From Escarpia spicata (lineage: Eukaryota; Annelida; Polychaeta; Sabellida; Siboglinidae): DNA of 64,000 bases. Below are positions 1-60,715 of the stretch, piece by piece; the stretch's first letter is position 1; each line of letters starts with the position of its first letter. The stretch covers positions 2,309,344 through 2,373,343 of the forward strand of contig OZ023207.1 of assembly GCA_963995525.1 (NCBI GenBank), in the 5' to 3' direction. The notes under the pieces are model-generated. The model saw only the letters and a program-made list of their open reading frames with translations. It had not been told where the DNA came from and did not search any database. The position numbers were made by a program, and so were the translations under genes.

Positions 1-2220
1 TTGTGTATCTCCCCGTTGGGTGATTGCCTTGTTGTTCTCCTTGTGTATCTCCTCTTTGGGTGAGTGCCCGATCGTTCTTCTTGTGTATCTTCCTTTTGGG
101 TGAGTGCCCGATCGTTCTCCTTGTGTATCTCCCCGTTGGGTGAGTGCCAGATTGTTCTCCTTATGTATCTCTGGGTTGGGTGAGTGCCAGGTTGTTCTCC
201 TTGTGTATCTCTCCGATGGGTGAGTGCCAAGTCGTTCTCCTTGTGTATCTCCCCGTTGGGTGAGTGCCAGGTCGTTCTCCTTGTGTATCTCCCCGTTGGG
301 TGAGTGCCAGGTTGTTCATCTTGTGTATCTCCCCGTTGGGTGAGTGCCCAATCTTTCTCATTGTGTATCTCCCCGTTGGGTGAGTGCCAGGTCGTTCTCC
401 TTGTGTAGCTCCCCGTTGGGTGAGTGCCACGTCGTTATCCTTGTGTATCTCCCCTTTGGGTGAGTGCCCGATCTTTCTCCTTGTGTATCTCCCGGTTGGG
501 TGAGTACCAGGTTGTTCTCCTTATGTATCTCCCCGTTGGGTGAGAGCCAGTTTGTTCTCCTTGTGTATCTCCCCGTTGGGTGAGTGCCCGGTCGTTCTCT
601 TTGTGTATCTCCACGTTGGGTGAATGTCAGGTTGTTCTCCTTGTGTATCTCCCCGTTGGGTGAGTGCCTTGTTGTTCTCCTTGTGTATCTCCCCTTTGGG
701 TGAGTGCCCGATCGTTCTTCTTGTTTATCTCCCCTTTGGGTGAGTGCCCGATCGTTCTCCTTGTGTATCTCCCCGTTGGGTGAGTGCCAGGTTGTTCTCC
801 TTGTGTATCTCCCCGTTGGGTGAGTGCCAGGTCGTTCTCCTTGTGTATCTCCCCGTTGGGTGAGTGCCAGGTTGTTCTCCTTGTGTATCTCCCGGTTGGG
901 TGAGTGCCAGGTTGTTCTCCTTGTGTATCTCCCCATTGGGTGAGTGCCAGGTCGTTCTCCTTGTGTATATCCACATTGTGTGAGTGCCAGGTTATTCTCC
1001 TTGTGTATATCCCCATTGGGTGAGTGCCAGGTTATTCTCCTTGTGCATCTCCACGTTGGGTGAATGCCAGGTTATTCTCCTTGTGTATCTCCCCGTTGGG
1101 TGAGTGCCCGATCGTTCTCCTTGTGTATCTCCCGGTTGGGTGAGTGCCAGGTTGTTCTCCTTGTGTACCTCCCCGTTGGGTGAGTGCCAGGTTGTTCTCC
1201 TTGTGTATAACCCCATTGAGTGAGAGCCAGGTCGTTCTCCTTGTGTATCTCCCCGTTGGGTGAGTGCCAGGTCGTTCTCATTGTGTATCTCCCCGTTGGG
1301 TGAGTGCCAGGTCGTTCTCCTTGTGTATATCCCCGTTGGGTGAGTGCCAGGTTGTTCATCTTGTGTATCTCCCCGTTGGGTGAGTGCCCAATCTGTCTCA
1401 TTGTGTATCTCCCCGTTGGGTGAGTGCCAGGTCGTTCTCCTTGTGTATCTCCCCGTTGGGTGAGTGCCACGTCGTTATCCTTGTGTATCTCCCCGATGGG
1501 TGAGTGCCAGGTTGTTCTCCTTGTGTATCTCCCCGTTGGGTGAGTGCCCGATCTTTCTCCTTGTGTATCTCCCGGTTGGGTGAGTGCCATGTTGTTCTCC
1601 TTATGTATCTCCCCGTTGGGTGAGAGCCAGTTTGTTCTCCTTGTGTATCTCCCCGTTGGGTGAGTGCCCGGTCGTTCTCTTTGTGTATCTCCCCGTTGGG
1701 TGAATGTCAGGTTGTTCTCCTTGTGTATCTCCCCGTTGGGTGAGTGCCTTGTTGTTCTCCTTGTGTATCTCCCCTTTGGGTGAGTGCCCGATCGTTCTTC
1801 TTGTGTATCTCCCCGTTGGGTGAGTGCCCGGTCGTTCTCCTTGTGTATCTCCCCGTTGGGTGAGTGCCAGGTTGTTCTCCTTGTGTATCTCTCCGTTGAG
1901 TGAGTGCCAGGTTGTTCTCCTTGTGTATCTCCCCGTTGGTTGAGTGCCAGGTTTTTCTCCTTGTGTATCTCCACGTTGGGTGAGTGCCAGGTTATTCTCC
2001 TTGTGTATCTCCCCGTTGGGTGAGTGCTCGATCGTTCTCCTTGTGTATCTCCCGGTTGGGTGAGTGCCAGGTTGTTCTCCTTGTGTATATCCCCGTTGGG
2101 TGAGTGCCAGGTTGTTCTCCTTGTGTATATCCCCATTGAGTGAGTGCCAGGTCGTTCTCCTTGTGTATCTCCCCGTTGGGTGAGTGCCAGGTCGTTCTCC
2201 TTGTGTATCTCCCCGTTGGG
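1..2220. repeat. Higher-order repeat block, copy 1 (55-56 units)
   Basis: This block matches 7081-9300 at a constant offset of 7080 bp (177 units) in every row I compared. Shared rare variants include TCCTTTTGGG near 91, CTCTGGGTTGG near 171, the GTGTAGCTCC unit near 405, and CCACATTGTG near 971. The match stops just after 2220. It may extend left of the window. Confidence 0.85.
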
Positions 2221-2680
2221 TGAGTGCCAGGTCGTTCTCCTTGTGTATCTCCCCGTTGGGTTAATGCCCAGTTGTTCATCTTGTGTATCTCCCCGTTGGG
2301 TTAATGCCCAGTCGTTCTCCTTGTGTATCTCCCCGTTGGGTGAGTGCCACCTCGTTATCGTTGTGTATCTCCCCGTTGGGTGTGTGCCAGGTTGTTCTCC
2401 TTGTGTATCTCCCCGTTGGGTGAGTGCCCGATCTTTCTCCTTGTGTATCTCCCGGTTGGGTGAGTACCAGGTTGTTCTCCTTATGTATCTCCCCGTTGGG
2501 TGAGAGCCAGTTTGTTCTCCTTGTGTATCTCCCCGTTGGGTGAGTGCCCGGTCGTTTTCTTTGTGTATCTCCCCGTTGGGTGAATGCCAGGTTGTTCTCC
2601 TTGTGTATCTCCCCGTTGGGTGTGTGCCCGGTCGTTCTCTTTGTGTATCTCCCCGTTGGGTGAATGCCAGGTCGTTCTCC

Positions 2681-3700
2681 TTGTGTATCTCCCCGTTGGG
2701 TGATTGCCTTGTTGTTCTCCTTGTGTATCTCCTCTTTGGGTGAGTGCCCGATCGTTCTTCTTGTGTATCTTCCCTTTGGGTGAGTGCCCGATCGTTCTCC
2801 TTGTGTATCTCCCCGTTGGGTGAGTGCCAGGTTGTTCTCCTTATGTATCTCTGGGTTGGGTGAGTGCCAGGTTGTTCTCCTTGTGTATCTCTCCGATGGG
2901 TGAGTGCCAAGTCTTTCTCCTTGTGTATCTCCCCGTTGGGTGAGTGCCAGGTCGTTCTCCTTGTGTATCTCCCCGTTGGGTGAGTGCCAGGTTGTTCATC
3001 TTGTGTATCTCCCCGTTGGGTGAGTGCCCAATCTTTCTCATTGTGTATCTCCCCGTTGGGTGAGTGCCAGGTCGTTCTCCTTGTGTAGCTCCCCGTTGGG
3101 TGAGTGCCACGTCGTTATCCTTGTGTATCTCCCCTTTGGGTGAGTGCCCGATCTTTCTCCTTGTGTATCTCCCGGTTGGGTGAGTACCAGGTTGTTCTCC
3201 TTATGTATCTCCCCGTTGGGTGAGAGCCAGTTTGTTCTCCTTGTGTATCTCCACGTTGGGTGAATGTCAGGTTGTTCTCCTTGTGTATCTCCCCGTTGGG
3301 TGAGTGCCTTGTTGTTCTCCTTGTGTATCTCCCCTTTGGGTGAGTGCCCGATCGTTCTTCTTGTTTATCTCCCCTTTGGGTGAGTGCCCGATCGTTCTCC
3401 TTGTGTATCTCCCCGTTGGGTGAGTGCCAGGTTGTTCTCCTTGTGTATCTCCCCGTTGGGTGAGTGCCAGGTCGTTCTCCTTGTGTATCTCCCCGTTGGG
3501 TGAGTGCCAGGTTGTTCTCCTTGTGTATCTCCCGGTTGGGTGAGTGCCAGGTTGTTCTCCTTGTGTATCTCCCCATTGGGTGAGTGCCAGGTCGTTCTCC
3601 TTGTGTATATCCACATTGTGTGAGTGCCAGGTTATTCTCCTTGTGTATATCCCCATTGGGTGAGTGCCAGGTTATTCTCCTTGTGCATCTCCACGTTGGG
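2681..3700. repeat. Partial copy of the 1-1060 block
   Basis: The rare-variant order of 1-1060 recurs here at offset 2680, changing to 2640 after the unit at about 3240 because one 40-bp unit is missing. A few point differences are visible, for example TCCCTTTGGG at 2771 in place of TCCTTTTGGG at 91. The match is lost near 3700. Confidence 0.75.
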
Positions 3701-4080
3701 TGAGTGCCTTGTTGTTCTCCTTGTGTATCTCCCCTTTGGGTGAGTGCCCGATCGTTCTTCTTGTGTATCTCCCCGTTGGGTGAGTGCCAGGTTGTTCTCC
3801 TTGTGTATCTCTCCGTTGAGTGAGTGCCAGGTTGTTCTCCTTGTGTATCTCCCCGTTGGTTGAGTGCCAGGTTATTCTCCTTGTGTATCTCCACGTTGGG
3901 TGAGTGCCAGGTTATTCTCCTTGTGTATCTCCCCGTTGGGTGAGTGCTCGATCGTTCTCCTTGTGTATCTCCCGGTTGGGTGAGTGCCACGTCGTTATCC
4001 TTGTGTATCTCCCCGTTGGGTGAGTGCCAGGTTGTTCTCCTTGTCTATCTCCCCGTTGGGTGAGTGCCCGATCTTTCTCC

Positions 4081-6840
4081 TTGTGTATCTCCCGGTTGGG
4101 TGAGTGCCATGTTGTTCTCCTTATGTATCTCCCCGTTGGGTGAGAGCCAGTTTGTTCTCCTTGTGTATCTCCCCGTTGGGTGAGTGCCCGGTCGTTCTCT
4201 TTGTGTATCTCCCCGTTGGGTGAATGTCAGGTTGTTCTCCTTGTGTATCTCCCCGTTGGGTGAGTGCCTTGTTGTTCTCCTTGTGTATCTCCCCTTTGGG
4301 TGAGTGCCCGATCGTTCTTCTTGTGTATCTCCCCGTTGGGTGAGTGCCCGGTCGTTCTCCTTGTGTATCTCCCCGTTGGGTGAGTGCCAGGTTGTTCTCC
4401 TTGTGTATCTCTCCGTTGAGTGAGTGCCAGGTTGTTCTCCTTGTGTATCTCCCCGTTGGTTGAGTGCCAGGTTATTCTCCTTGTGTGTCTCCACGTTGGG
4501 TGAGTGCCAGGTTATTCTCCTTGTGTATCTCCCCGTTGGGTGAGTGCTCGATCGTTCTCCTTGTGTATCTCCCGGTTGGGTGAGTGCCAGGTTGTTCTCC
4601 TTGTGTATATCCCCGTTGGGTGAGTGCCAGGTTGTTCTCCTTGTGTATATCCCCATTGAGTGAGTGTCCGGTCGTTCTCCTTGTGTATCTCCCCGTTGGG
4701 TGAGTGCCAGGTCGTTCTCCTTGTGTATCTCCTCGTTGGGTGAGTGCCAGGTCGTTCTCCTTGTGTATCTCCCCGTTGGGGGAGTGCCAGGTTGTTCATC
4801 TTGTGTATCTCCCCGTTGGGTTAATGCCCAGTCGTTCTCCTTGTGTATCTCCCCGTTGGGTGAGTGCCAGGTCGTTCTCCTTCTGTATCTCCCCGTTGGG
4901 TGAGTGCCACGTCGTTATCCTTGTGTATCTCCCCGATGGGTGAGTGCCAGGTTGTTCTCCTTGTGTATCTCCCCGTTGGGTGAGTGCCCGATCTTTCTCC
5001 TTGTGTATCTCCCGGTTGGGTGAGTGCCATGTTGTTCTCCTTATGTATCTCCCCGTTGGGTGAGAGCCAGTTTGTTCTACTTGTGTATCTCCCCGTTGGG
5101 TGAGTGCCCGGTCGTTCTCTTTGTGTATCTCCCCGTTGGGTGAATGTCAGGTTGTTCTCCTTGTGTATCTCCCCGTTGGGTGAGTGCCTTGTTGTTCTCC
5201 TTGTGTATCTCCCCTTTGGGTGAGTGCCCGATCGTTCTTCTTGTGTATCTCCCCGTTGGGTGAGTGCCCGGTCGTTCTCCTTGTGTATCTCCCCGTTGGG
5301 TGAGTGCCAGGTTGTTCTCCTTGTGTATCTCTCCGTTGAGTGAGTGCCAGGTTGTTCTCCTTGTGTATCTCCCCGTTGGTTGAGTGCCAGGTTATTCTCC
5401 TTGTGTATCTCCACGTTGGGTGAGTGCCAGGTTATTCTCCTTGTGTATCTCCCCGTTGGGTGAGTGCTCGATCGTTCTCCTTGTGCATCTCCCGGTTGGG
5501 TGAGTGCCAGGTTGTTCTCCTTGTGTATATCCCCGTTGGGTGAGTGCCAGGTTGTTCTCCTTGTGTATATCCCCATTGAGTGAGTGCCAGGTCGTTCTCC
5601 TTGTATATCTCCCCGTTGGGTGAGTGCCAGGTCGTTCTCCTTGTGTATCTCCCCGTTGGGTGAGTGCCAGGTCGTTCTCCTTGTGTATCTCCCCGTTGGG
5701 GGAGTGCCAAGTTGTTCATCTTGTGTATCTCCACGTTGGGTTAATGCCCAGTCGTTCTCCTTGTGTATCTCCCCGTTGGGTGAGTGCCAGGTCGTTCTCC
5801 TTCTGTATCTCCCCGTTGGGTGAGTGCCACGTCGTTATCCTTGTGTATCTCCCCGTTGGGTGTGTGCCAGGTTGTTCTCCTTGTGTATCTCCCCGTTGGG
5901 TGAGTGCCCGATCTTTCTCCTTGTGTATCTCCCGGTTGGGTGAGTACCAGGTTGTTCTCCTTATGTATCTCCCCGTTGGGTGAGAGCCAGTTTGTTCTCC
6001 TTGTGTATCTCCCCGTTGGGTGAGTGCCCGGTCGTTCTCTTTGTGTATCTCCCCGTTGGGTGAATGTCAGGTTGTTCTCCTTGTGCATCTCCCCGTTGGG
6101 TGAGTGCCTTGTTGTTCTCCTTGTGTATCTCCCCTTTGGGTGAGTGCCCGATCGTTCTTCTTGTGTATCTCCCCGTTGGGTGAGTGCCCGGTCTTTCTCC
6201 TTGTGTATCTCCCCGTTGGGTGAGTGCCAGGTTGTTCTCCTTGTGTATCTCTCCGTTGAGTGAGTGCCAGGTTGTTCTCCTTGTGTATCTCCCCGTTGGT
6301 TGAGTGCCAGGTTATTCTCCTTGTGTATCTCCACGTTGGGTGAGTGCTAGGTTATTCTCCTTGTGTATCTCCCCGTTGGGTGAGTGCTCGATCGTTCTCC
6401 TTGTGTATCTCCCGGTTGGGTGAGTGACAGGTTGTTCTCCTTGTGTATATCCCCGTTGGGTGAGTGCCAGGTTGTTCTCCTTGTGTATATCCCCATTGAG
6501 TGAGTGCCAGGTCGTTCTCCTTGTGTATCTCCCCGTTGGGTGAGTGCCAGGTCGTTCTCCTTGTGTATCTCCCCGTTGGGTGAGTGCCAGGTCGTTCTCC
6601 TTGTGTATCTCCCCGTTGGGGGAGTGCCAAGTTGTTCATCTTGTGTATCTCCCCGTTGGGTTAATGCCCAGTCGTTCTCCTTGTGTATCTCCCCGTTGGG
6701 TGAGTGCCAGGTCGTTCTCCTTCTGTATCTCCCCGTTGGGTGAGTGCCACGTCGTTATCCTTGTGTATCTCCCCGTTGGGTGTGTGCCAGGTTGTTCTCC
6801 TTGTGTATCTCCCCGTTGGGTGAGTGCCCGATCTTTCTCC
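4081..6840. repeat. Three tandem copies of a 920-bp (23-unit) higher-order repeat
   Basis: Copies run 4081-5000, 5001-5920 and 5921-6840. Each starts with the CCCGGTTGGG unit and carries the same ordered markers: a TTATGTATCT unit, GAGAGCCAG, a CCTTTGGG unit, CTCCGTTGAG, a TATATCCCC pair, and a GTTGTTCATC unit. The third copy has small differences, such as GAGTACCAG where the first copy has GAGTGCCAT. Confidence 0.8.
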
Positions 6841-7080
6841 TTGTGTATCTCCCGGTTGGGTGAGTACCAGGTTGTTCTCCTTATGTATCTCCCCGTTGGG
6901 TGAGAGCCAGTTTGTTCTCCTTGTGTATCTCCCCGTTGGGTGAGTGCCCGGTCGTTTTCTTTGTGTATCTCCCCGTTGGGTGAATGCCAGGTTGTTCTCC
7001 TTGTGTATCTCTCCGTTGGGTGTGTGCCCGGTCGTTCTCTTTGTGTATCTCCCCGTTGGGTGAATGCCAGGTCGTTCTCC

Positions 7081-9300
7081 TTGTGTATCTCCCCGTTGGG
7101 TGATTGCCTTGTTGTTCTCCTTGTGTATCTCCTCTTTGGGTGAGTGCCCGATCGTTCTTCTTGTGTATCTTCCTTTTGGGTGAGTGCCCGATCGTTCTCC
7201 TTGTGTATCTCCCCGTTGGGTGAGTGCCAGATTGTTCTCCTTATGTATCTCTGGGTTGGGTGAGTGCCAGGTTGTTCTCCTTGTGTATCTCTCCGATGGG
7301 TGAGTGCCAAGTCGTTCTCCTTGTGTATCTCCCCGTTGGGTGAGTGCCAGGTCGTTCTCCTTGTGTATCTCCCCGTTGGGTGAGTGCCAGGTTGTTCATC
7401 TTGTGTATCTCCCCGTTGGGTGAGTGCCCAATCTTTCTCATTGTGTATCTCCCCGTTGGGTGAGTGCCAGGTCGTTCTCCTTGTGTAGCTCCCCGTTGGG
7501 TGAGTGCCACGTCGTTATCCTTGTGTATCTCCCCTTTGGGTGAGTGCCCGATCTTTCTCCTTGTGTATCTCCCGGTTGGGTGAGTACCAGGTTGTTCTCC
7601 TTATGTATCTCCCCGTTGGGTGAGAGCCAGTTTGTTCTCCTTGTGTATCTCCCCGTTGGGTGAGTGCCCGGTCGTTCTCTTTGTGTATCTCCACGTTGGG
7701 TGAATGTCAGGTTGTTCTCCTTGTGTATCTCCCCGTTGGGTGAGTGCCTTGTTGTTCTCCTTGTGTATCTCCCCTTTGGGTGAGTGCCCGATCGTTCTTC
7801 TTGTTTATCTCCCCTTTGGGTGAGTGCCCGATCGTTCTCCTTGTGTATCTCCCCGTTGGGTGAGTGCCAGGTTGTTCTCCTTGTGTATCTCCCCGTTGGG
7901 TGAGTGCCAGGTCGTTCTCCTTGTGTATCTCCCCGTTGGGTGAGTGCCAGGTTGTTCTCCTTGTGTATCTCCCGGTTGGGTGAGTGCCAGGTTGTTCTCC
8001 TTGTGTATCTCCCCATTGGGTGAGTGCCAGGTCGTTCTCCTTGTGTATATCCACATTGTGTGAGTGCCAGGTTATTCTCCTTGTGTATATCCCCATTGGG
8101 TGAGTGCCAGGTTATTCTCCTTGTGCATCTCCACGTTGGGTGAATGCCAGGTTATTCTCCTTGTGTATCTCCCCGTTGGGTGAGTGCCCGATCGTTCTCC
8201 TTGTGTATCTCCCGGTTGGGTGAGTGCCAGGTTGTTCTCCTTGTGTACCTCCCCGTTGGGTGAGTGCCAGGTTGTTCTCCTTGTGTATAACCCCATTGAG
8301 TGAGAGCCAGGTCGTTCTCCTTGTGTATCTCCCCGTTGGGTGAGTGCCAGGTCGTTCTCATTGTGTATCTCCCCGTTGGGTGAGTGCCAGGTCGTTCTCC
8401 TTGTGTATATCCCCGTTGGGTGAGTGCCAGGTTGTTCATCTTGTGTATCTCCCCGTTGGGTGAGTGCCCAATCTGTCTCATTGTGTATCTCCCCGTTGGG
8501 TGAGTGCCAGGTCGTTCTCCTTGTGTATCTCCCCGTTGGGTGAGTGCCACGTCGTTATCCTTGTGTATCTCCCCGATGGGTGAGTGCCAGGTTGTTCTCC
8601 TTGTGTATCTCCCCGTTGGGTGAGTGCCCGATCTTTCTCCTTGTGTATCTCCCGGTTGGGTGAGTGCCATGTTGTTCTCCTTATGTATCTCCCCGTTGGG
8701 TGAGAGCCAGTTTGTTCTCCTTGTGTATCTCCCCGTTGGGTGAGTGCCCGGTCGTTCTCTTTGTGTATCTCCCCGTTGGGTGAATGTCAGGTTGTTCTCC
8801 TTGTGTATCTCCCCGTTGGGTGAGTGCCTTGTTGTTCTCCTTGTGTATCTCCCCTTTGGGTGAGTGCCCGATCGTTCTTCTTGTGTATCTCCCCGTTGGG
8901 TGAGTGCCCGGTCGTTCTCCTTGTGTATCTCCCCGTTGGGTGAGTGCCAGGTTGTTCTCCTTGTGTATCTCTCCGTTGAGTGAGTGCCAGGTTGTTCTCC
9001 TTGTGTATCTCCCCGTTGGTTGAGTGCCAGGTTTTTCTCCTTGTGTATCTCCACGTTGGGTGAGTGCCAGGTTATTCTCCTTGTGTATCTCCCCGTTGGG
9101 TGAGTGCTCGATCGTTCTCCTTGTGTATCTCCCGGTTGGGTGAGTGCCAGGTTGTTCTCCTTGTGTATATCCCCGTTGGGTGAGTGCCAGGTTGTTCTCC
9201 TTGTGTATATCCCCATTGAGTGAGTGCCAGGTCGTTCTCCTTGTGTATCTCCCCGTTGGGTGAGTGCCAGGTCGTTCTCCTTGTGTATCTCCCCGTTGGG
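7081..9300. repeat. Higher-order repeat block, copy 2 (duplicate of 1-2220)
   Basis: All rows checked match 1-2220 with no indel, including single-base oddities such as the TTGTGTATAA unit near 8281 (1201 in copy 1) and the GTCTCATTG variant near 8474. The absence of visible differences implies a very recent duplication or strong homogenisation. Confidence 0.85.
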
Positions 9301-12300
9301 TGAGTGCCAGGTCGTTCTCCTTGTGTATCTCCCCGTTGGGGGAGTGCCAAGTTGTTCATCTTGTGTATCTCCACGTTGGGTTAATGCCCAGTCGTTCTCC
9401 TTGTGTATCTCCCCGTTGGGTGAGTGCCAGGTCGTTCTCCTTCTGTATCTCCCCGTTGGGTGAGTGCCACGTCGTTATCCTTGTGTATCTCCCCGTTGGG
9501 TGTGTGCCAGGTTGTTCTCCTTGTGTATCTCCCCGTTGGGTGAGTGCCCGATCTTTCTCCTTGTGTATCTCCCGGTTGGGTGAGTACCAGGTTGTTCTCC
9601 TTATGTATCTCCCCGTTGGGTGAGAGCCAGTTTGTTCACCTTGTGTATCTCCCCGTTGGGTGTGTGCCCGGTCGTTCTCTTTGTGTATCTCCCCGTTGGG
9701 TGAATGCCAGGTCGTTCTCCTTGTGTATCTCCCCGTTGGGTGATTGCCTTGTTGTTCTCCTTGTGTATCTCCTCTTTGGGTGAGTGCCCGATCGTTCTTC
9801 TTGTGTATCTCCCCTTTGGGTGAGTGCCCGATCGTTCTCCTTGTGTATCTCCCCGTTGGGTGAGTGCCAGGTTGTTCTCCTTATGTATCTCTCGGTTGGG
9901 TGAGTGCCAGGTTGTTCTCCTTGTGTATCTCCCCGATGGGTGAGTGCCAGGTCGTTCTCCTTGTGTATCTCCCCGTTGGGTGAGTGCCAGGTCGTTCTCC
10001 TTGTGTATCTCCCCGTTGGGTGAGAGCCAGGTTGTTCATCTTGTGTATCTCCCCGTTGGGTGAGTGCCCAATCTTTCTCATTGTGTATCTCCCCGTTGGG
10101 TGAGTGCCAGGTCGTTCTCCTTGTGTAGCTCCCCGTTGGGTGAGTGCCACGTCGTTATCCTTGTGTATCTCCCCGTTGGGTGAGTGCCCGATCTTTCTCC
10201 TTGTGTATCTCCCGGTTGGGTGAGTACCAGGTTGTTCTCCTTATGTATCTCCCCGTTGGGTGAGAGCCAGTTTGTTCTCCTTGTGTATCTCCCCGTTGGG
10301 TGAGTGCCCGGTCGTTCTCTTTGTGTATCTCCACGTTGGGTGAATGTCAGGTTGTTCTCCTTGTGTATCTCCCCGTTGGGTGAGTGCCTTGTTGTTCTCC
10401 TTGTGTATCTCCCCTTTGGGTGAGTGCCCGATCGTTCTTCTTGTTTATCTCCCCTTTGGGTGAGTGCCCGATCGTTCTCCTTGTGTATCTCCCCGTTGGG
10501 TGAGTGCCAGGTTGTTCTCCTTGTGTATCTCCCCGTTGGGTGAGTGCCAGGTCGTTCTCCTTGTGTATCTCTCCTTTGGGTGAGTGCCAGGTCGTTTTCA
10601 TTGTTTATCTCCCCGTTGGGTGAGTGCCCGGTCGTTCTCCTTGTGTAACTCCCCGTTGGGTGAGTGCCAGGTCGTTCTACTTGTGTATCTCCCCGTTGGG
10701 TGAGTGCCAGGTTTTTCTCCATGTTTATCTCCTCTTTGGGTGAGTTCCCGATCGTTCTTCTTGTTTATCTCCCCTTTGGGTGAGTGCCCGATCGTTCTCC
10801 TTGTGTATCTCCCCGTTGGGTGAGTGCCAGGTTGTTCTCCTTATGTATCTCCCGGTTGGGTGAGTGCCAGGTTGTTCTCCTTGTGTATCTCATCGTTGGG
10901 TGAGTGCCAGGTTGTTCTCCTTGTGTATATCCCCATTGAGTGAGAGCCAGGTCGTTCTCCTTGTGTATCTCCCCGATGGGTGAGTGCCAGGTCGTTCTCC
11001 TTGTGTATCTCCCCGTTGGGTGAGTGCCAGGTTGTTCTCCTTGTGTATATCCCCGTTGGGTGAGTGCCAGGTTGTTCTCCTTGTGTATTTCCCCATTGAG
11101 TGTGTGCCAGGTCGTTCTCCTTGTGTATCTCCCCGTTGGGTGAGTGCCAGGTCGTTCTCCTTGTGTATCTCCTCGTTGGGTGAGTGCCAGGTCGTTCTCC
11201 TTGTGTATCTCCCCGTTGGGGGAGTGCCAGGTTGTTCATCTTGTGTATCTCCCCGTTGGGTTAATGCCCAGTCGTTCTCCTTGTGTATCTCCCCGTTGGG
11301 TGAGTGCCAGGTCGTTCTCCTTCTGTATCTCCCCGTTGGGTGAGTGCCACGTCGTTATCCTTGTGTATCTCCCCGTTGGGTGTGTGCCAGGTTGTTCTCC
11401 TTGTGTATCTCCCCTTTGGGTGAGTGCCCGATCTTTCTCCTTGTGTATCTCCCGGTTGGGTGAGTACCAGGTTGTTCTCCTTATGTATCTCCCCATTGGG
11501 TGAGAGCCAGTTTGTTCTCCTTGTGTATCTCCCCATTGGGTTAGTGCCCGATCGTTCTCCTTGTGTATCTCCCGGTTGGGTGAGTGCCAGGATGTTCTCC
11601 TTATTTATCTCCCCGTTGGTTGAGAGCCAGATTGTTCTCCGTGTGTTTCTCCCCGTTGGGTGATTGTCATGTCGTTCTCCTTGTGTATCTCCCCGTTGGG
11701 TGAGTGCCAGGTTGTTCTCCTTGTGTATCTCACCGTTGGGTGAGTGCCAGTTTGTTCTCCTTGTGTATCTCCCCGTTGGGTGAGTGCCACGTCGTTATCC
11801 TTGTGTATCTCCCCGTTGGGTGAGTGCAAGGTCGTTCTCCTTGCGTATCTCCCCCTTGGGTGAGTGCCAGGTTGTTCTACTGGTGTATCTCCCCGTTGGG
11901 TGAGTGCCAGGTTTTTCTCCTTGTGTATCTCCCCGTTGGGTGAGTGCCAGGTTGTTCTCCTTGTGTATCTCCCCGTTGGGTGAGTGCCAGGTTGTTCTCC
12001 TTGTGTATCTCCCGGTTGGGTGAGTGCCAGGTTGTTCTCCTTGTGTATCTCCCCATTGGGTGAGGGCCAGGTCGTTCTCCTTGTGTATATCCCCATTGTG
12101 TGAGTGCCAGGTTATTCTCCTTGTGTATATCCCCATTCGGTGAGTGCCAGGTTATTCTCCTTGTGCATCTCCACGTTGGGTGAATGCCAGGTTATTCTCC
12201 TTGTGTATCTCCCCGTTGGGTGAGTGCCCGATCGTTCTCCTTGTGTATCTCCCGGTTGGGTGAGTGCCACGTTGTTCTCCTTGTGTATCTCCCCGTTGGG

Positions 12301-17800: not shown

Positions 17801-18000
17801 TATGTATCTCCCGGTTGGGTGAGTGCCAGGTTGTTCTCCTTGTGTATCTCATCGTTGGGTGAGTGCCAGGTTGTTCTCCTTGTGTATATCCCCATTGAGT
17901 GAGAGCCAGGTCGTTCTCCTTGTGTATCTCCCCGATGGGTGAGTGCCAGGTCGTTCTCCTTGTGTATCTCCCCGTTGGGTGAGTGCCAGGTCGTTCTCCT
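14801..18000. repeat. Tandem duplication, 2 x 1600 bp (40 units)
   Basis: Copies are 14801-16400 and 16401-18000, abutting head to tail. Shared markers include the TCGGTTGGTT unit (15251 and 16851), the TTTATCTCCCCGATGGG unit, CAATGTTTCTC, and TGTGTAACTC. The unit before 14801 differs from the unit before 16401, which places the left edge. The second copy has at least one private change, CGTTGTTTG near 17653. Confidence 0.85.
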
Positions 18001-31255: not shown

Positions 31256-31324
31256 CCTGGTTGTTCTCCTTGTGTATCTCCCCGTTGGGTGAGTGCCCAA
31301 TCGTTCTCCTTGTGTATCTCCCGG

Positions 31325-44000: not shown

Positions 44001-44459
44001 CAGGTTGTTCTCCTTGTGTATCTCCCCTTTGGATGAGTGCACAATCGTTCTCCTTGTGTATCTCCCCGTTGGGTGAGTGCCCGATCTTTCTCCTTTTTTA
44101 TCTCCCGGTTGGGTGAGTGCCTGGTCGTTCTCCTTGTGTATCTCCCCGTTGGGTGAGTGCTATGTTGTTCTCCTTGTGTATCTCCCCGTTGGGTGAGTGC
44201 CAGGTTGTTCTCCTTGTGTATCTCCCCATTGGGTGAGTGCCAGGTTGTTCTCCTTGTGTATATCCCCATTGTGTGAGTGCCAGGTTATTCTCCTTGTGTA
44301 TATCCCCATTGGGTGAGTGCCAGGTTATTCTCCTTGTGTATCTCCACGTTGGGTGAGTGCCAGGTTATTCTCCTTGTGTATATCCCCATTGGGTGAGTGC
44401 CAGGTTATTCTCCTTGTGTATCTCCACGTTGGGTGAGTGCCAGGTTTTTCTCCTTGTGT

Positions 44460-46180: not shown

Positions 46181-47139
46181 CTCCGTTGGGTGAGTGCCAG
46201 GTTATTCTCCTTGTGTATCTCCCCGTTGGGTGAGTGCCAGGTTGTTATCCTTGTGTATCTCCCCGTTGGTTGATTGTCAGGTCGTTCTCCTTGTGTATCT
46301 CCCCGTTGGGTGAGTGCCAGGTTGTTCTCCTTGTGTATCTCCCCGTTGGGTGAGTGCAAGGTCGTTCTCCTTGTGTATCTACCCTTTGGGTGAGTGCCCG
46401 ATCGTTCTCCTTTTGTATCTCCCCGTTGGGTGAGTGCCAGGTCGTTATCCTTTGTATCTCCCCGTTGGGTGAGTGCACTATCGTTCTCCTTGTATATCTC
46501 CCGGTTGGGTGAGTGCCTGGTTGTTCTCCTTATGTATCTCCCCATTGGGTGAGTGCCCGGTCGTTCTCCTTGTGTATCTCCCCGTTGGGTGAGTGCCAGG
46601 TCGTTCTCCTTGTGTATCTCCCCGTTGGGTGAGTGCCAGGTCGTTCTCCTTGTGTATATCCCCGTTGGGTGAGTGCCAGGTTGTTCATCTTGTGTATCTC
46701 CCCGTTGGGTGAGTGCCCAGTCGTTCTCCTTGTGTATCTCCCCGTTGGGTGAGTGCCAGGTCGTTCTCCTTGTGTATCTCCCCGTTGGGTGAGAGCCAGT
46801 TTGTTCTCCTTGTGTATCTCCCCGTTGAGTGAGCGCCCGGTCGTTCTCTTTGTGTATCTCCCAGTTGGGTGAATGCCAGGTTGTTCTCCTTGTGTATCTC
46901 CCCGTTGGGTGAGGGCCAGGTCGTTCTTCTTGTGTATCTCCCCTTTGGGTGGGTGCCCGATCGTTCTCCTTGTGTATCTTCCAGTTGGGTGAGTGCCAGG
47001 TTGTTCTCCTTATGTATCTCCCCGTTGGGTGAGAGCCCGTTTGTTCTCCTTGTGTATCTCCCCGTTGAGTGAGCGCCCGGTCGTTCTCTTTGTGTATCTC
47101 CCCGTTGGGTGAATGCCAGGTTGTTCTCCTTGTGTATCT

Positions 47140-48150
47140 CCCCGTTGGGTGAGAGCCAGTTTGTTCTTCTTGTGTATCTCCCCGTTGGATGAATGCCCGT
47201 TCGTTCTCTTTGTGTATCTCCCCGTTGGGTGAATGCCAGGTTGTTCTCCTTGTGTATCTCCCCGTTGGGTGAGTGCCAGGTCGTTCTCCTTGTGTATCTC
47301 CCCGTTGGGAGAGTGCCTTGTTGTTCTACTTGTGTATCTCTCCTTTGGGTGAATGCCCGATCGTTCTTCTTGTGTATCTCCCCTTTGGGTGAGTGCCCGA
47401 TCGTTCTCCTTGTGTATCTCCCCGTTGGGTGAGTGCCAGGTTGTTCTCCTTATGTACCTCCCCGTTGGGTGAGTGCCAGGTTGTTCTCCTTATGTACCTC
47501 CCCGTTGGGTGAGTGCCTGGTTGTTCTCCTTGTGTATATCTCCTTTGGGTGAGTGCCCGATCGTTCTCCTTGTGTATCTCCCCGTTGGGTGAGTGCCAGG
47601 TTGTTCTCCTTGTGTATCTCCCCGTTCGGTGAGTGCCCGGTCGTTTTCCTTGTGTATCTCCCCGTTGGGTGAGTGCCAGGTCTTTCTCCATGTGTAACTC
47701 CCCGTTGGGTGAGTGCCAGGTCGTTATCCTTGTGTATCTCCCCGTTGGGTGAGTGCCAGGTTGTTCTCCTTGTGTATCTCCCCGTTGGGTGAGTGCCCGA
47801 TCGTTCTCCTTGTGTATCTCCCGGTTGGGTGAGTGCCAGGTTGTTCTCCTTATTTATCTCCCCTTGGGTGAGAGCCAGGTTGTTCTCCTTGTGTATCTCC
47901 TGGTTGGGTGATTGTCAGGTCGTTCTCCTTGTGTATCTCCCCGTTGGGTGAGTGCCCGATCGATCTCCTTGTGTATCTCCCGGTTGGGTGAGTGCCAGGT
48001 CGTTCTCCTTGTGTATCTCCCCGTTGGGTGAGTGCCATGTTGTTTTCCTTGTGTATCTCCCCGTTGGGTGAGAGCCACGTTGTTCTCCTTGTGTATCTCC
48101 CCGTTGGGTGATTGTCAGGTCGTTCTCCTTGTGTGTCTCCCCGTTGGGTG
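47140..48150. repeat. Higher-order block D, copy 1
   Basis: This matches about 50896-51907 at an offset near 3756. Shared markers include GTTGGATGAATGCCCG, the paired TTATGTACCTCC units, TATATCTCC, and CATGTGTAACTCC. Copy 1 has a one-base loss in CCCCTTGGG near 47863. Confidence 0.7.
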
Positions 48151-48489
48151 AGTACCAGGTTATTCTCCTTGTGTATCTCCCCGTTGGGTGAGTGCCAGGT
48201 TGTTCTCCTTATGTACCTCCCCGTTGGGTGAGTGCCAGATTGTTCTCCTTGTGTATCTCCCCGTTGGGTGAGTGCCCGGTCGTTCTCCTTGTGTATCTCT
48301 CCGTTGGGTGAGTTCCATGTCGTTCTCCTTGTGTATCTCCCCGTTGGGTGAGTGCCCGGTCGTTCTCCTTTTGTATCTCCCCGTTGGGTGAGTGCCAGGT
48401 CGTTCTCCTTGTGTATCTCCCTGTTGGGTGAGTGCCAGGTCGTTCTCCTAGTGTATCTCCTCGTTGGGTGAGTGCCAGGTCGTTATCCT

Positions 48490-49470
48490 TGTGTATCTCC
48501 CCGTTGGGTGAGTGCCAGGTTGTTCTCCATGTTTATCTCCGCGTTGGGTGAGTGCCCGGTCGTTCTCCTTGTGTATCTCCCCGTTGGGTGAGTGCCAGGT
48601 CGTTCTCCTTGTGTATCTCCCCGTTGGGTGAGTGCCCGGTCGTTCTCCTTGTGTATATCCCCGTTGGGTGAGTGCCAGGTCGTTCTCCTTGTGTATCTCA
48701 CCGTTGGGTGAGTGCCAGGTTGTTCTCCTTGTGTATCTCCCCGTTGGGTGAGTGCCAGGTCGTTCTCCTTGTGTATCTCCCGGTTGGGTGAGTGCCAGGA
48801 TGTTCTCCTTATTTATCTCCCCGTTGGGTGAGAGCCAGATTGTTCTCCGTGTGTTTCTCCCCGTTGGGTGATTGTCAGGTCGTTCTCCTTGTGTATCTCC
48901 CCGTTGGGTGAGTGCCCGGTCGTTCTTATTGTATATCTCCCCGTTGGGTGAGTGCCATGTCGTTCTCCTTGTGTATCTCCCCGTTGGGTGAGTGCCAGGT
49001 TGTTCTCCATGTTTATCTCCGCGTTGGGTGAGTGCCAAGTCGTTCTCCTTGTGTATCTCCCCGTTGGGTGAGTGCCAGGTTGTTCTCCATGTTTATCTCC
49101 GCGTTGGGTGAGTGCCCGGTCGTTCTCCTTGTGTATCTCCCCGTTGGGTGAGTGCCAGGTCGTTCTCCTTGTGTATCTCCCCGTTGGGTGAGTGCCCGGT
49201 CGTTCTCCTTGTGTATCTCCCCGTTGGGTGAGTGCCAGGTCGTTCTCCTTATGTATCTCACCGTTGGGTGAGTGCCAGGTTGTTCTCCTTGTGTATCTCC
49301 CCGTTGGGTGAGTGCCAGGTCGTTCTCCTTGTGTATCTCCCGGTTGGGTGACTGCCAGGATGTTCTCCTTATTTATCTCCCCGTTGGGTGAGAGCCAGAT
49401 TGTTCTCCGTGTGTTTCTCCACGTAGGGTGATTGTCAGGTCGTTCTCCTTGTGTATCTCCCCGTTGGGTG
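48490..49470. repeat. Local duplication at 560-bp (14-unit) spacing
   Basis: A string of about 420 bp at 48490-48910 recurs at 49050-49470. It includes the CATGTTTATCTCCGCG pair, CAGGATGTTC, TTATTTATCT and CCGTGTGTTTCTC. The second copy has GACTGCC and ACGTAGGG variants. Confidence 0.7.
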
Positions 49471-50129
49471 AGTGCCAAGTCGTTCTCCTTGTGTATCTCC
49501 CCGTTGGGTGAGAGCACGGTCGTTCTCCTTGTGTATCTCCCCGTTGGGTGAGTGCCTGAATGTTCTCCTTGTGTATCTCCCCTTTGGGTGAGTGCCCGAT
49601 CGTTCTCCTTTTGTATCTCCCCGTTGGGTGAGTGCCAGGTCGTTATCCTTTGTATCTCCCCGTTGGGTGAGTGCACAATCGTTCTCCTTGTATATCTCCC
49701 GGTTGGGTGAGTGCCAGGTTGTTCTCCTTATGTATCTCCCCGTTGGGTGAGTGCCCGGTCGTTCTCCTTGTGTATCTCCCCGTTGGGTGAGTGCCAGGTC
49801 GTTCTCCTTGTGTATCTCCCCGTTGGGTGAGTGCACAATCGTTCTCCTTGTATATCTCCCGGTTGGGTGAGTGCCAGGTTGTTCTCCTTATGTATCTCCC
49901 CGTTGGGTGAGTGCCCGGTCGTTCTCCTTGTGTATCTCCCCGTTGGGTGAGTGCCAGGTCGTTCTCCTTGTGTATCTCCCCGTTGGGTGAGTGCCAGGTC
50001 GTTATCCTTTGTATCTCCCCGTTGGGTGAGTGCCAGGTTGTTCTCCTTATTTATCTCCCCGTTGGGTGAGAGCAAGGTTGTTCTCCTTGTGTATCTCCCC
50101 GTTGGGTGAGTGCCAGGTCGTTCTCCTTA

Positions 50130-53100
50130 TGTATATCCCCGTTGGGTGAGTGACTGGTTGTTCTCCTTGTGTATCTCCCCTTTGGATGAGTGCACAATCG
50201 TTCTCCTTGTGTATCTCCCCGTTGGGTGAGTGCCATGTTGTTCTCCTTATGTATCGCCCCGTTGGGTGAGTGCCAGGTTGTCCTCCTTGTGTATCTCCCG
50301 GTTGGGTGAGTGCCAGGTTGTTCTCCTTATGTATCTCCCCGTTGGGTGAGAGCCAGTTTGTTCTCCTTGTGTATCTCCCCGTTGGGTGAATGCCCGTTCG
50401 TTCTCTTTGTGTATCTCCCCGTTGGGTGAATGCCATGTTGTTCTCCTTGTGTATCTCCCCTTTGGGTGAGTGCCAGGTCGTTCTCCTTGTGTATCTCCCC
50501 GTTGGGTGAGTGCCCGGTCGTTCTCCTTGTGTATCTCCCCGTTGGGTGTGTGCCAGGTCGTTATCCTTTGTATCTCCCCGTTGGGTGAGTGCCAGGTTGT
50601 TCTCCTTGTGTATCTCCCCGTTGGGTGAGTGCCCGATCGTTCTCCTTGTGTATCTCCCGGTTGGGTGAGTGCCAGGTTGTTCTCCTTATTTATCTCCCCG
50701 TTGGGTGAGAGCCAGGTTGTTCTCCTTGTGTATCTCCCCGTTGGGTGAGTGCCAGGTCGTTCTCCTTATGTATATCCCCGTTGGGTGAGTGCCCAATCGT
50801 TCTCCTTGTGTATCTCCCGGTTGGGTGAGTGCCCGATCTTTTTCCTTGTGTTTCTCCCGGTTGGGTGAGTGCCATGTTGTTCTCCTTATGTATCTCCCCG
50901 TTGGGTGAGAGCCAGTTTGTTCTTCTTGTGTATCTCCCCGTTGGATGAATGCCCGTTCGTTCTCTTTGTGTATCTCCCCGTTGGGTGAATGCCAGGTTGT
51001 TCTCCTTGTGTATCTCCCCGTTGGGTGAGTGCCAGGTCGTTCTCCTTGTGTATCTCCCCGTAGGGAGAGTGCCTTGTTGTTCTACTTGTGTATCTCTCCT
51101 TTGGGTGAGTGCCCGATCGTTCTTCTTGTGTATCTCCCCTTTGGGTGAGTGCCCGATCGTTCTCCTTGTGTATCTCCCCGTTGGGTGAGTGCCAGGTTGT
51201 TCTCCTTATGTACCTCCCCGTTGGGTGAGTGCCAGGTTGTTCTCCTTATGTACCTCCCCGTTGGGTGAGTGCCTGGTTGTTCTCCTTGTGTATATCTCCT
51301 TTGGGTGAGTGCCCGATCGTTCTCCTTGTGTATCTCCCCGTTGGGTGAGTGCCAGGTTGTTCTCCTTGTGTATCTCCCCGTTCTGTGAGTGCCCGGTCGT
51401 TTTCCTTGTGTATCTCCCCGTTGGGTGAGTGCCAGGTCTTTCTCCATGTGTAACTCCCCGTTGGGTGAGTGCCAGGTCGTTATCCTTGTGTATCTCCCCG
51501 TTGGGTGAGTGCCAGGTTGTTCTCCTTGTGTATCTCCCCGTTGGGTGAGTGCCCGATCGTTCTCCTTGTGTATCTCCCGGTTGGGTGAGTGCCAGGTTGT
51601 TCTCCTTATTTATCTCCCCGTTGGGTGAGAGCCAGGTTGTTCTCCTTGTGTATCTCCTCGTTGGGTGATTGTCAGGTCGTTCTCCTTGTGTATCTCCCCG
51701 TTGGGTGAGTGCCCGATCGATCTCCTTGTGTATCTCCCGGTTGGGTGAGTGCCAGGTCGTTCTCCTTGTGTATCTCCCCGTTGGGTGAGTGCCATGTTGT
51801 TTTCCTTGTGTATCTCCCCGTTGGGTGAGAGCCACGTTGTTCTCCTTGTTTATCTCCCCGTTGGGTGATTGTCAGGTCGTTCTCCTTGTGTGTCTCCCCG
51901 TTGGGTGAGTGCCTGGTTGTTCTCCTTGTGTATCTCCCCTTTGGATGAGTGCACAATCGTTCTCCTTGTGTATCTCCCCGTTGGGTGAGTGCCATGTTGT
52001 TCTCCTTATGTATCGCCCCGTTGGGTGAGTGCCAGGTTGTCCTCCTTGTGTATCTCCCGGTTGGGTGAGTGCCAGGTTGTTCTCCTTATGTATCTCCCCG
52101 TTGGGTGAGAGCCAGTTTGTTCTCCTTGTGTATCTCCCCGTTGGGTGAATGCCCGTTCGTTCTCTTTGTGTATCTCCCCGTTGGGTGAATGCCATGTTGT
52201 TCTCCTTGTGTATCTCCCCTTTGGGTGAGTGCCAGGTCGTTCTCCTTGTGTATCTCCCCGTTGGGTGAGTGCCCGGTCGTTCTCCTTGTGTATCTCCCCG
52301 TTGGGTGAGTGCCAGGTCGTTCTCCTTGTGTATCTCCCCGTTGGGTGTGTGCCAGGTCGTTATCCTTTGTATCTCCCCGTTGGGTGAGTGCCAGGTTGTT
52401 CTCCTTGTGTATCTCCCCGTTGGGTGAGTGCCCGATCGTTCTCCTTGTGTATCTCCCGGTTGGGTGAGTGCCAGGTTGTTCTCCTTATTTATCTCCCCGT
52501 TGGGTGAGAGCCAGGTTGTTCTCCTTGTGTATCTCCCCGTTGGGTGAGTGCCAGGTCGTTCTCCTTATGTATATCCCCGTTGGGTGAGTGCCCAATCGTT
52601 CTCCTTGTGTATCTCCCGGTTGGGTGAGTGCCCGATCTTTTTCCTTGTGTTTCTCCCGGTTGGGTGAGTGCCATGTTGTTCTCCTTATGTATCTCCCCGT
52701 TGGGTGAGAGCCAGTTTGTTCTTCTTGTGTATCTCCCCGTTGGATGAATGCCCGTTCGTTCTCTTTGTGTATCTCCCCGTTGGGTGAATGCCAGGTTGTT
52801 CTCCTTGTGTATCTCCCCGTTGGGTGAGTGCCAGGTCGTTCTCCTTGTGTATCTCCCGGTTGGGTGAGTGCCAGGATGTTCTCCTTATTTATCTCCCCGT
52901 TGGGTGAGAGCCAGATTGTTCTCCGTGTGTTTCTCCCCGTTGGGTGATTGTCAGGTCGTTCTCCTTGTGTATCTCCCCGTTGGGTGAGTGCCAGGTCGTT
53001 CTCCTTGTGTATCTCCCCGTTGGGTGAGTGCACGGTCGTTCTCCTTGTGTATCTCCCCGTTGGGTGAGTGCCTGAATGTTCTCCTTGTGTATCTCCCCTT

Positions 53101-55500
53101 TGGGTGAGTGCCAGGTCGTTATCCTTTGTATCTCCCCGTTGGGTGAGTGCCAGGTTGTTCTCCTTATTTATCTCCCCGTTGGGTGAGAGCCAGGTTGTTC
53201 TCCTTGTGTATCTCCCCGTTGGGTGAGTGCCAGGTCGTTCTCCTTATGTATATCCCCGTTGGGTGAGTGCCTGGTTGTTCTCCTTGTGTATCTCCCCTTT
53301 GGATGAGTGCACAATCGTTCTCCTTGTGTATCTCCCCGTTGGGTGAGTGCCATGTTGTTCTCCTTATGTATCGCCCCGTTGGGTGAGTGCCAGGTTGTCC
53401 TCCTTGTGTATCTCCCGGTTGGGTGAGTGCCAGGTTGTTCTCCTTATGTATCTCCCCGTTGGGTGAGAGCCAGTTTGTTCTCCTTGTGTATCTCCCCGTT
53501 GGGTGAATGCCCGTTCGTTCTCTTTGTGTATCTCCCCGTTGGGTGAATGCCAGGTTGTTCTCCTTGTGTATCTTTTCGTTGGGTGAGTGCCCGATCGTTC
53601 TTCTTGTGTATCTCCCCTTTGGGCGAGTGCCCGATCGTTCTCCTTGTGTATCTCCCCGTTGGGTGAGTGCCAGGTTGTTCTCCTTATGTACCTCCCCGTT
53701 GGGTGAGTGCCAGGTTGTTCTCCTTATGTAGCTCCCCGTTGGGTGAGTGCCTGGTTGTTCTCCTTGTGTATATCTCCTTTGGGTGAGTGCCCGATCGTTC
53801 TCCTTGTGTATCTCCCCGTTGGGTGAGTGCCAGGTTGTTCTCCTTGTGTATCTCCCCGTTCGGTGAGTGCCCGGTCGTTTTCCTTGTGTATCTCCCCGTT
53901 GGGTGAGTGCCAGGTCTTTCTCCTTGTGTAACTCACCGTTGGGTGAGTGCCAGGTCGTTATCCTTGTGTATCTCCCCGTTGGGTGAGTGCCAGGTTGTTC
54001 TCCTTGTGTATCTCCCCGTTGGGTGAGTGCCCGATCGTTCTCCTTGTGTATCTCCCGGTTGGGTGAGTGCCAGGTTGTTCTCCTTATTTATCTCCCCGTT
54101 GGGTGAGAGCCAGGTTGTTCTCCTTGTGTATCTCCTCGTTGGGTGATTGTCAGGTCGTCCTCCTTGTCTATCTCCCCGTTGGGTGAGTGCCAGGTTGTTC
54201 TCCTTGTGTATCTCCCCGTTGGGTGAGTGCCAGGTTGTTCTCCTTGTGTATCTCCCCGTTGGGTGAGTGCCATGTTGTTCTCCTTGTGTATCTCCCCGTT
54301 GGGTGAGTGCCAGGTCGTTCTCCTTGTGTATCTCCCCGTTGGGTGTGTGCCAGGTCGTTCTCCTTGTGTATCTCCCCGTTGGGTGAGTGCCAGGTCGTTA
54401 TCCTTTGTATCTCCCCGTTGGGTGAGTGCCAGGTTGTTCTCCTTATTTATCTCCCCGTTGGGTGAGAGCCAGGTTGTTCTCCTTATGTATCTCCCCGTTG
54501 GGTGAGTGCCAGGTCGTTCTCCTTATGTATATCCCCGTTGGGTGAGTGCCTGGTTGTTCTCCTTGTGTATCTCCCCTTTGGATGAGTGCACAATCGTTCT
54601 CCTTGTGTATCTCCCCGTTGGGTGAGTGCCATGTTGTTCTCCTTATGTATCGCCCCGTTGGGTGAGTGCCAGGTTGTCCTCCTTGTGTATCTCCCGGTTG
54701 GGTGAGTGCCAGGTTGTTCTCCTTATGTATCTCCCCGTTGGGTGAGAGCCAGTTTGTTCTCCTTGTGTATCTCCCCGTTGGGTGAATGCCCGTTCGTTCT
54801 CTTTGTGTATCTCCCCGTTGGGTGAATGCCAGGTTTTTCTCCTTGTGTATCTCCCCGTTGGGTGAGTGCCCGGTCGTTCTCCTTGTGTATCTCCCCGTTG
54901 GGTGAGTGCCAGTTCGTTATCCTTTGTATCTCCCCGTTGGGTGAGTGTCAGGTTGTTCTCCTTGTGTATCTCCCCGTTGGGTGAGTGCCCGATCGTTCTC
55001 CTTGTGTATCTCCCGGTTGGGTGAGTGCCAGGTTGTTCTCCTTATTTATCTCCCCGTTGGGTGAGAGCCAGGTTGTTCTCCTTGTGTATCTCCCCGTTGG
55101 GTGAGTGCCAGGTCGTTCTCCTTATGTATATCCCCGTTGGGTGAGTGCCCAATCGTTCTCCTTGTGTATCTCCCGGTTGGGTGAGTGCCCGATCTTTTTC
55201 CTTGTGTTTCTCCCGGTTGGGTGAGTGCCAGGTTGTTCTCCTTATGTATCTCCCCGTTGGATGAGAGCCAGTTTGTTCTTCTTGTGTATCTCCCCGTTGG
55301 ATGAATGCCCGTTCGTTCTCTTTGTGTATCTCCCCGTTGGGTGAATGCCAGGTTGTTCTCCTTGTGTATCTCCCCGTTGGGTGAGTGCCAGGTCGTTCTC
55401 CTTGTGTATCTCTCCGTTGGGTGAGTGCCTTGTTGTTCTACTTGTGTATCTCCCCTTTGGGTGAGTGCCCGATCGTTCTTCTTGTGTATCTCCCCTTTGG
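50130..55500. repeat. Cassette group repeated at 1.3-1.8 kb spacing
   Basis: A marker string TTTGGATGAGTGCACAATCG, followed by TATCGCCCCG and a GTTGTCCTCC unit, occurs at about 50181, 51940, 53298 and 54577. A second cassette (CCCAATCG, then a TTTTTCCTTG unit and TTTCTCCCGG) occurs near 50790, 52590 and 55150. The intervals differ, so copies have been shuffled and trimmed. Confidence 0.7.
50896..51907. repeat. Higher-order block D, copy 2
   Basis: This is the partner of 47140-48150. Small private changes include CCGTAGGGAG near 51058 and GTTCTGTGAG near 51381. Confidence 0.7.
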
Positions 55501-56282
55501 GTGAGTGCCCGATCGTTCTCCTTGTGTATCTCCCCGTTGGGTGAGTGCCAGGTTGTTCTCCTTATGTACCTCCCCGTTGGGTGAGTGCCAGGTTGTTCTC
55601 CTTATGTACCTCCCCGTTGGGTGAGTGCCTGGTTGTTCTCCTTGTGTATCTCTCCTTTGGGTGAGTGCCAGGTCGTTCTCCTTATGTATCTCCCCGTTGG
55701 GTGAGTGCCTGGTTGTTCTCCTTGTGTATTTCCCCTTTGGGTGAGTGCCCGATCGTTCTCCTTGTGTATCTCCCCGTTGGGTGAGTGCCAGGTTGTTCTC
55801 CTTGTGTATCTCCCCGTTGGGTGAGTGCCCGATCGTTCTCCTTGTGTATCTCCCGGTTGGGTGAGTGACAGGTTGTTCTCCTTATTTATCTCCCCGTTGG
55901 GTGAGTGCCAGGTTGTTCTCCTTGTGTATCTCCCCGTTGGGTGAGTGCCAGGTTGTTCTCCTTGTGTATCTCCTCGTTGGGTGATTGTCAGGTCGTTCTC
56001 CTTGTGTATCTCCCCGTTGGGTGAGTGCCATGTTGTTCTCCTTGTGTATCTCCCCGTTGGGTGAGTGCCAGGTTGTTCTCCTTGTGTATCTCCCCGTTGG
56101 GTGAGTGCCATGTTGTTCTCCTTGTGTATCTCCCCGTTGGGTGAGTGCCCGGTCGTTCTCCTTGTGTGTCTCCCCGTTGGGTGAGTGCCCGGTCGTTCTC
56201 CTTGTGTATCTCCCCGTTGGGTGAGTGCCAGGTCGTTCTCCTTGTATATCTCCCCGTTGGGTGAGTGCCAGGTCGTTCTCCT

Positions 56283-56444
56283 CGAGGTGTTGTGTGGGAA
56301 GAGTGTGTTGGCCAGGGTTAGCTTGTGACTATTGGTGAACTCCACGAGTCTCAGTCCTCTTTCGTTTGTTTCTCCTGTTCCAGAACGACCCACTCTGCCT
56401 GCTCACTGGTCGTATGAATCTGGACCGACCTTTGCTTCCCAGTC
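56283..56444 (-). pseudogene. Fragment of RTE-like LINE endonuclease (ORF2 N-terminal part)
   Basis: On the minus strand this encodes about 54 residues of an APE-type retrotransposon endonuclease. In order it reads DWEAKVG (the GDWNAKVG-type active-site strand), an in-frame TGA at 56405-56403 where family members have Trp, GTGETNERGLRLVEF, and LTLANTLFPH. It then enters the satellite as RRTTWHSPNGEI. Family members continue with an N-Q-I-D motif, but here the sequence loops back into the repeated unit. Upstream of the Asp at 56444 the family resemblance stops, so the copy is 5'-truncated or joined to other DNA. The rest of the LINE, if present, lies left of the window. The protein would be nonfunctional. 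The RTE/BovB-like assignment rests on motif recognition from memory. Confidence 0.85.
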
Positions 56445-60572: not shown

Positions 60573-60684
60573 CATCACCACCATCACCACCACCATCATC
60601 ATCACCACTACCACTACCACCACCACCACCACCGTCATCACCAACACCACCATCACCACCACCACCACCACCATCACCACCACC

Positions 60685-60715
<31 letters not shown>

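Follow-up and report, generated by a model that had tools for sequence, protein, structure and literature searches.

Where does a satellite come from? Satellite origins are usually argued from weak similarity, because the arrays erase their own beginnings. The locus described here raises the question in a form that can be answered from its surroundings. Most of the window, by which we mean the whole stretch of 64,000 nucleotides that was analysed, is a single 40-bp array on contig C3, and at its right edge this array passes into a piece of a LINE endonuclease gene. We asked whether the gene gave rise to the array, how often this happened, and by what route 40 bp could become more than 100 kb.

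Results

Structure of the 40-bp array

TRF called the array at period 40 with 1,408 copies and 88% matches (Table 1). The units keep their register, except for 39 that are one base short, and they diverge from the consensus by 6.8% on average; random pairs are 88.5% alike. They fall into 305 distinct types, the commonest of which (108 units) is identical, letter for letter, to the single unit of a LINE copy on contig C1 (L012). We looked for a short higher-order repeat in the window array and found none: identity stays flat at 0.88 to 0.89 throughout lags of 1 to 119 units, so the order within the array is instead one of long block duplications. The two clearest comprise 168 units at a lag of 165 (99.6% identity) and 135 units at a lag of 131 (99.7%), and 92% of the window units lie within some duplicated block of at least 12 units at 98% identity or more. 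Long, recent block duplications make up much of the structure of the window array. Head-to-tail units extending over tens of kilobases or more, the mark of a satellite, are found both here and in the second array, on contig C12, described below.

A coding role for the array was not supported. The minus strand holds 596 stops, against 588.5 +/- 7.1 in shuffles, and this agreement shows that no coding constraint acts on the array, which is not maintained as coding sequence.

Table 1. Positions of the arrays, the LINE fragment and neighbouring features. Plain numbers are window positions unless a contig or LINE copy is named.
Feature	Position	Strand	Basis or remark
40-bp satellite array	1..56282	- (LINE-sense strand)	TRF, register, variants; extends left beyond the window
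Final unit, whose frame carries on into the LINE (RRTTWHSPNGEI)	56243..56282	-	translation; alignment with L009, L010 and L012
LINE endonuclease gene fragment, upstream (5') of the amplified 40 bp	56283..56442	-	own-genome matches, tree
Repeat DNA of another kind, joined to the LINE fragment	56443..56990 (end approximate)	.	fusion also in L009 and L010
Second in-place array, 90-bp unit x 18	56996..58616	.	TRF; SINE-like repeat segment
CAC-rich microsatellite, period 3/18	60576-60759		TRF; ~61 copies of 3 bp
SINE-type repeat, tRNA-like part (GTGGCGCAGTGCTTAGAAC..GGTTCGATTCC)	61340-61410		by eye
Reverse transcriptase-like sequence (AYMDDILVYG), presumably of an LTR retrotransposon	63160-64000	+	by motif; cut at the window end
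40-bp array on C12	C12: 53586176-53721635 (~135 kb)		edges and sample points
40-bp expansion in LINE	L021
48-bp expansion in LINE	L009, L020
50-bp expansion in LINE	L009, L010, L020
53-bp expansion in LINE	L024
60-bp expansion in LINE	L009, L015, L017
64-bp expansion in LINE, x 4	L014:2719-2981		partly overlapping the 40-bp unit

The unit is a single-copy segment of a LINE

At 56282/56283 the array runs in register, with no break, into a minus-strand endonuclease frame, which reads ..DWEAKVGPDSYDQ..NERGLRLVEFTNSHKLTLANTLFPHNTSRRTTWHSPNGEI and then continues into the array. A search of the species' own genome (1.06 Gb) with positions 56283-56500 returned 22 matches in 19 places, the window included. 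Homology to the LINE covers about 160 bp (~56283-56442), as most of the 22 matches end near query position 160, and the fusion to other repeat DNA at ~56442 is shared with L009 (on C15) and L010 (on C2).

We compared all 18 other places with this LINE flank (L009 to L026), matching the unit at up to 9 substitutions. In 14 of the 18 the unit is present exactly once and at a fixed place, between the sequences coding for HNQID and LFPHK, so that dispersed copies carry the monomer singly, as for a TE-derived satellite. The LINE-sense order is LFPHK-TSRR-TTWHSPNGEIH-NQIDYILAP. One of the 14, L014, has next to its full unit a segment that partly overlaps the unit and is itself repeated in tandem at 64 bp. 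L021 holds 70 units and proved to be part of the second array, while three places (L022, L024 and L026) gave no unit at this threshold; by eye, the first two each have one unit damaged by small indels, and the region is deleted in the third. Genome-wide, a 47-base pattern spanning the LINE edge and the unit (up to 3 mismatches) found 12 places, all of them LINE copies or array, and its reversed control found 0. An earlier note on this DNA had read the minus-strand frame as an endonuclease that enters the unit in phase, and had named the TWHSPNG segment of the LINE as the source of the satellite. Translation across the array edge bears out the reading of the frame. The source is supported by the 14 copies with the unit once and in place, and the check proposed there, setting other copies against the array edge, places the single unit between the HNQID- and LFPHK-coding sequences.

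Judged by its predicted domains, the element is a LINE with an APE-type endonuclease, with both endonuclease and reverse transcriptase represented among its copies; it may belong to the RTE group. A piece of L014 matches RVT_1 (Pfam, E 2.8e-21), and the reverse transcriptase is absent from the fragment in the window. A piece of L012 matches PF14529 (Pfam, E 9.2e-5), but at 22.7 bits, below the curated cut-off of 27.4; the closest protein relatives carry PF14529/PF03372. A sequence match against the PDB gave nothing useful (best E 0.83). Protein relatives in other genomes share the motif TWHxPNGxxHNQID. Across 13 of the 30 relatives, which were aligned, the T, W, H and G are nearly invariant, and HNQID comes next in 8 of these 13; those named among the 30 are a craniofacial development protein 2-like (Penaeus indicus) and a hypothetical protein (Nucella lapillus). 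The motif in relatives from other genomes, together with the single units in place, indicates that the LINE came first.

A sister array lies between both halves of its LINE

The second 40-bp array, L021 on C12, has 96% matches. All 13 sample points up to 53720000 fell within it, and all 7 beyond 53730000 fell outside. At its far edge the array returns to the LINE, with ...GCAAGTATGTAGCCAATCTGA followed across the edge by TTGTGTCCCTCCCC.... The 5' LINE half matches L012 2262-2944 and L013 2739-2916, and the 3' half matches L013 2880-3283 (87%), over ~400 bases only. The halves are collinear and overlap by about one unit, and the array is flanked on both sides by two parts of one LINE copy, which is otherwise continuous at the array, yet is itself a fragment. 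Because the halves are collinear around the array, amplification in place can be read directly, and we regard the C12 array between both of its LINE halves as the strongest result of this analysis.

The C3 array continues left of the window to ~C3:2191626 and totals ~174 kb, or 4,350 units by length, an extent that comes from 21 sample points and the left edge rather than from base-by-base reading. All 21 points from the window back to C3:2192400 were array in the same orientation, and 19 of 19 further left were outside it. At the left edge the array opens mid-unit, directly after a (GT)n run, and no LINE was seen on reading the 2.8 kb to the left; a LINE half adjoins this array on the right side only. 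The DNA left of the edge (L068:1-1690) is a different tandem array, with a period of roughly 115-120 bp by eye. With no LINE at its left end, the C3 array, and it alone, may have captured its LINE by a moving array edge. The earlier note had described an amplification of about 1,400-fold with the source still attached at one end. The amplification of the 40-bp segment stands, and its size is revised to ~4,350 units once the left extension is included; the attached source holds for C3, where it sits at the right end and the left end abuts (GT)n, whereas the C12 array keeps both LINE halves.

A pattern made of the 40-bp dimer gave 3,417 forward and 3,253 reverse matches, and among the 100 matches listed, all were on C3 and C12. 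Scaling of the two arrays accounts for roughly 6,300 of the 6,670 and leaves ~350 unplaced, so that two is a lower bound for the number of 40-bp arrays. The C3 array lies at ~2.19-2.37 Mb of 70.9 Mb and the C12 array at ~53.59-53.72 Mb of 55.5 Mb. Both are ~2 Mb from a contig end, with the 5' side of the LINE toward the contig interior, an arrangement that may be due to chance.

Other segments expanded, and their endpoints

TRF found 11 arrays inside LINE DNA, in 8 of the 18 LINE places (Table 1). The 50-bp and 53-bp arrays have 32-43 units (in L009, at approximately 529-2183 as converted from the sense strand, L010, L020 and L024), and the two periods span the same LINE segment with different endpoints. 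Genome-wide there are 315 matches to the 50-bp junction, in at least 6 places among the 100 listed, and 44 to the 60-bp junction, in 5 places, one of them with a spacing of 56. The segment underlying the 90-bp array, to the right of the LINE fragment, is found just once in each of L009 and L010. Two in-place expansions thus lie next to each other in the window; the 90-bp segment appears once more, more diverged, at ~59436-59535.

To characterize the duplication endpoints, we counted the letters shared at the two ends (microhomology), judged against unexpanded sister copies. The 40-bp endpoints share CAA (3 bp in four of the five sisters, 2 bp in the other), the 50-bp endpoints GAAAG (5 bp in 2 of 5, 2-4 in the others) and the 53-bp endpoints AACA (4-5 bp in 3 of 4, 2 in one). 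For the 48-bp and 64-bp endpoints the values depend on the choice of sister: AACA, 4 bp in 4 of 5 and 2 in one, for the former, and 1-4 bp, in the four sisters where the ends could be placed, for the latter. The 60-bp endpoints share 0-1 bp, and those of the 90-bp unit, in the SINE-like repeat of the window, 3 and 4 bp. Most duplication endpoints carry 3-5 bp of microhomology. Random endpoints in the same LINE share at least 3 bp in 6-8%; at least 3 bp in 6 of 7 events has a chance of ~1e-6, or ~0.001 when the four clear events (40, 50, 53 and 90) are counted alone.

Within the same 18 places, tandem arrays number 15 in 54.1 kb outside the LINE and 11 in 32.1 kb inside it (p 0.69). This comparison gave no support to a proneness to expand that is specific to the LINE, and with the density about the same inside and outside, the expansions call for no special property of the element. 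Neither this LINE nor the 40-bp segment is exceptional in its tendency to expand; minisatellites are readily born across the whole genome. In the LINE such a birth becomes visible, because the sister copies show the earlier state.

Discussion

Probable amplification in place

Very probably, the satellite is a 40-bp piece of LINE endonuclease coding sequence (around TWHSPNG) that was amplified in place inside single copies of the element. The starting state is a dead LINE copy with the 40 bp once, between two TTG triplets (CAA on the LINE strand). A tandem duplication would have come from slippage, or from microhomology-mediated repair, involving the two triplets. Unequal exchange and larger block duplications would then have grown the array to 135-174 kb and partly homogenised it, consistent with the blocks of 5-7 kb at 99.6-99.7% identity seen in the array. 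We found no LINE copy with two or a few 40-bp units besides the C12 array (edge patterns, up to 3 mismatches), so the intermediate step is not seen. Amplification would have taken place twice, on C3 and on C12, starting from two LINE copies, and on C3 the downstream LINE half may have been lost later, at a breakpoint beside (GT)n.

Other origins for the join between LINE and satellite fit less well. Capture of a satellite by an element is one of two scenarios discussed for Ogre elements (PMC7004042), and a 40-bp satellite that existed beforehand might likewise have been taken up by the LINE. The 40 bp, however, code for part of a motif that is conserved among protein relatives from other animals, and single units lie in frame within dispersed LINE copies; the conservation refutes capture, unless those relatives are contaminants from the same genome, and we give the idea almost no credence. 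Template slippage by the LINE machinery during reverse transcription would suit the expansion of several different segments of the same LINE in different copies. We consider it improbable as the source of the tandems, given that arrays are similarly dense outside the LINE, that the 60-bp expansion of L017 is missing from its sister L019 (support 100), and that arrays of 135-174 kb exceed any cDNA. Long arrays are also hard to assemble, and the assembly was our sole source, but false joins are very improbable: the register is kept exactly at both C12 edges, with the C3 edge in agreement, and the window is without any N and has its unit variants in an ordered block structure.

The number of births is a separate matter. 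At position 15 of the unit, 141 of the 142 C12 units read have A and 1,234 of the 1,408 window units have G, and single-copy LINE units show both letters. In a tree of 16 tips, the LINE fragment of the window groups with L009 (89) and L010 (94), each of which has a single 40-bp unit, and the C12 copy falls outside. The blocks behind this tree are short and partly unlike: L014, L024 and L026 were dropped from the 18, the window contributed only its upstream block and L025 only its downstream one, and for L009 and L020 the 48-bp expansions are part of the downstream block. Two arrays on LINE copies that do not group, with different founder letters, suggest that the same 40 bp were probably amplified twice, on C3 and on C12. 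A single birth in one LINE copy, after which the array moved to the other copy, with the shared LINE flank as the route for ectopic recombination or gene conversion, would explain why the arrays have the same unit, the same register and the same side of the LINE facing the contig interior, as recombination through LINE homology would also yield a shared register; neither array, moreover, is more than about 2.4 Mb from a contig end. We nevertheless think such a transfer unlikely. The founder letter at position 15 differs throughout the two arrays, the flanking LINE copies sit in different parts of the tree, and an imported array would need to be an exact replacement, since C12 keeps both LINE halves. 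Two births are likelier than one birth with transfer, on a tree that rests on short blocks.

Two births of more than 100 kb from the same 40 bp also bring up a broader possibility, which we offer tentatively and would not call probable: that satellite birth is determined by site. Fixed coding segments bounded by direct repeats of 3-5 bp would expand repeatedly in independent copies, and a dispersed LINE would sow the same potential satellite over the chromosomes. If this is true, the element's sequence could serve to predict where in this genome future satellites will arise, with which unit and in which register.

Comparison with known systems

One genome here holds single-copy sisters, small expansions of tens of units in other segments, and two arrays above 100 kb, one of which is still framed by the split halves of its source element. 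With the state before amplification, small expansions and large arrays coexisting, it becomes possible to measure the first duplication along with its endpoints and rate. Our search of open-access papers met no case of a satellite above 100 kb still between two halves of its own LINE.

A 2022 review (PMC9659126) traces PROsat (Phodopus) and Pvc20 (Phoca) to LINE-1 ORF2 and chicken HinfI to part of CR1 ORF2, and the same source discusses microhomology-mediated joining. In these satellites, too, the monomer is related to a portion of a LINE ORF. The case for them in that review is one of similarity, whereas the single-copy source, the array edge and the C12 halves are assembled here, and the present unit, unlike theirs, is only 40 bp.

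LINE untranslated regions appear as satellite sources in a 2025 review (PMC12628747), and the 3' untranslated repeats of Ogre are the best documented source of satellites within an element (PMC7004042). The Lathyrus Ogre satellites described there are likewise long arrays grown from a short tandem expansion inside a retrotransposon, but they stem from tandem repeats that an LTR element carries in its 3' untranslated region; the source here is coding sequence, and most of the copies examined have it only once. Oyster Helentrons also carry tandem arrays inside mobile elements, as a standing part of element structure (PMC7492417), whereas those reported here are sporadic between copies and occur at several sites.

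The LINE annotated elsewhere as 'craniofacial development protein 2-like' has the same endonuclease and reverse transcriptase domains and the TWHxPNGxxHNQID motif; the copies examined here differ from it in being interrupted by stops, frameshifts and tandem expansions. Satellites from LINE ORFs are already known, and the new part is the preservation of birth sites together with births in parallel.
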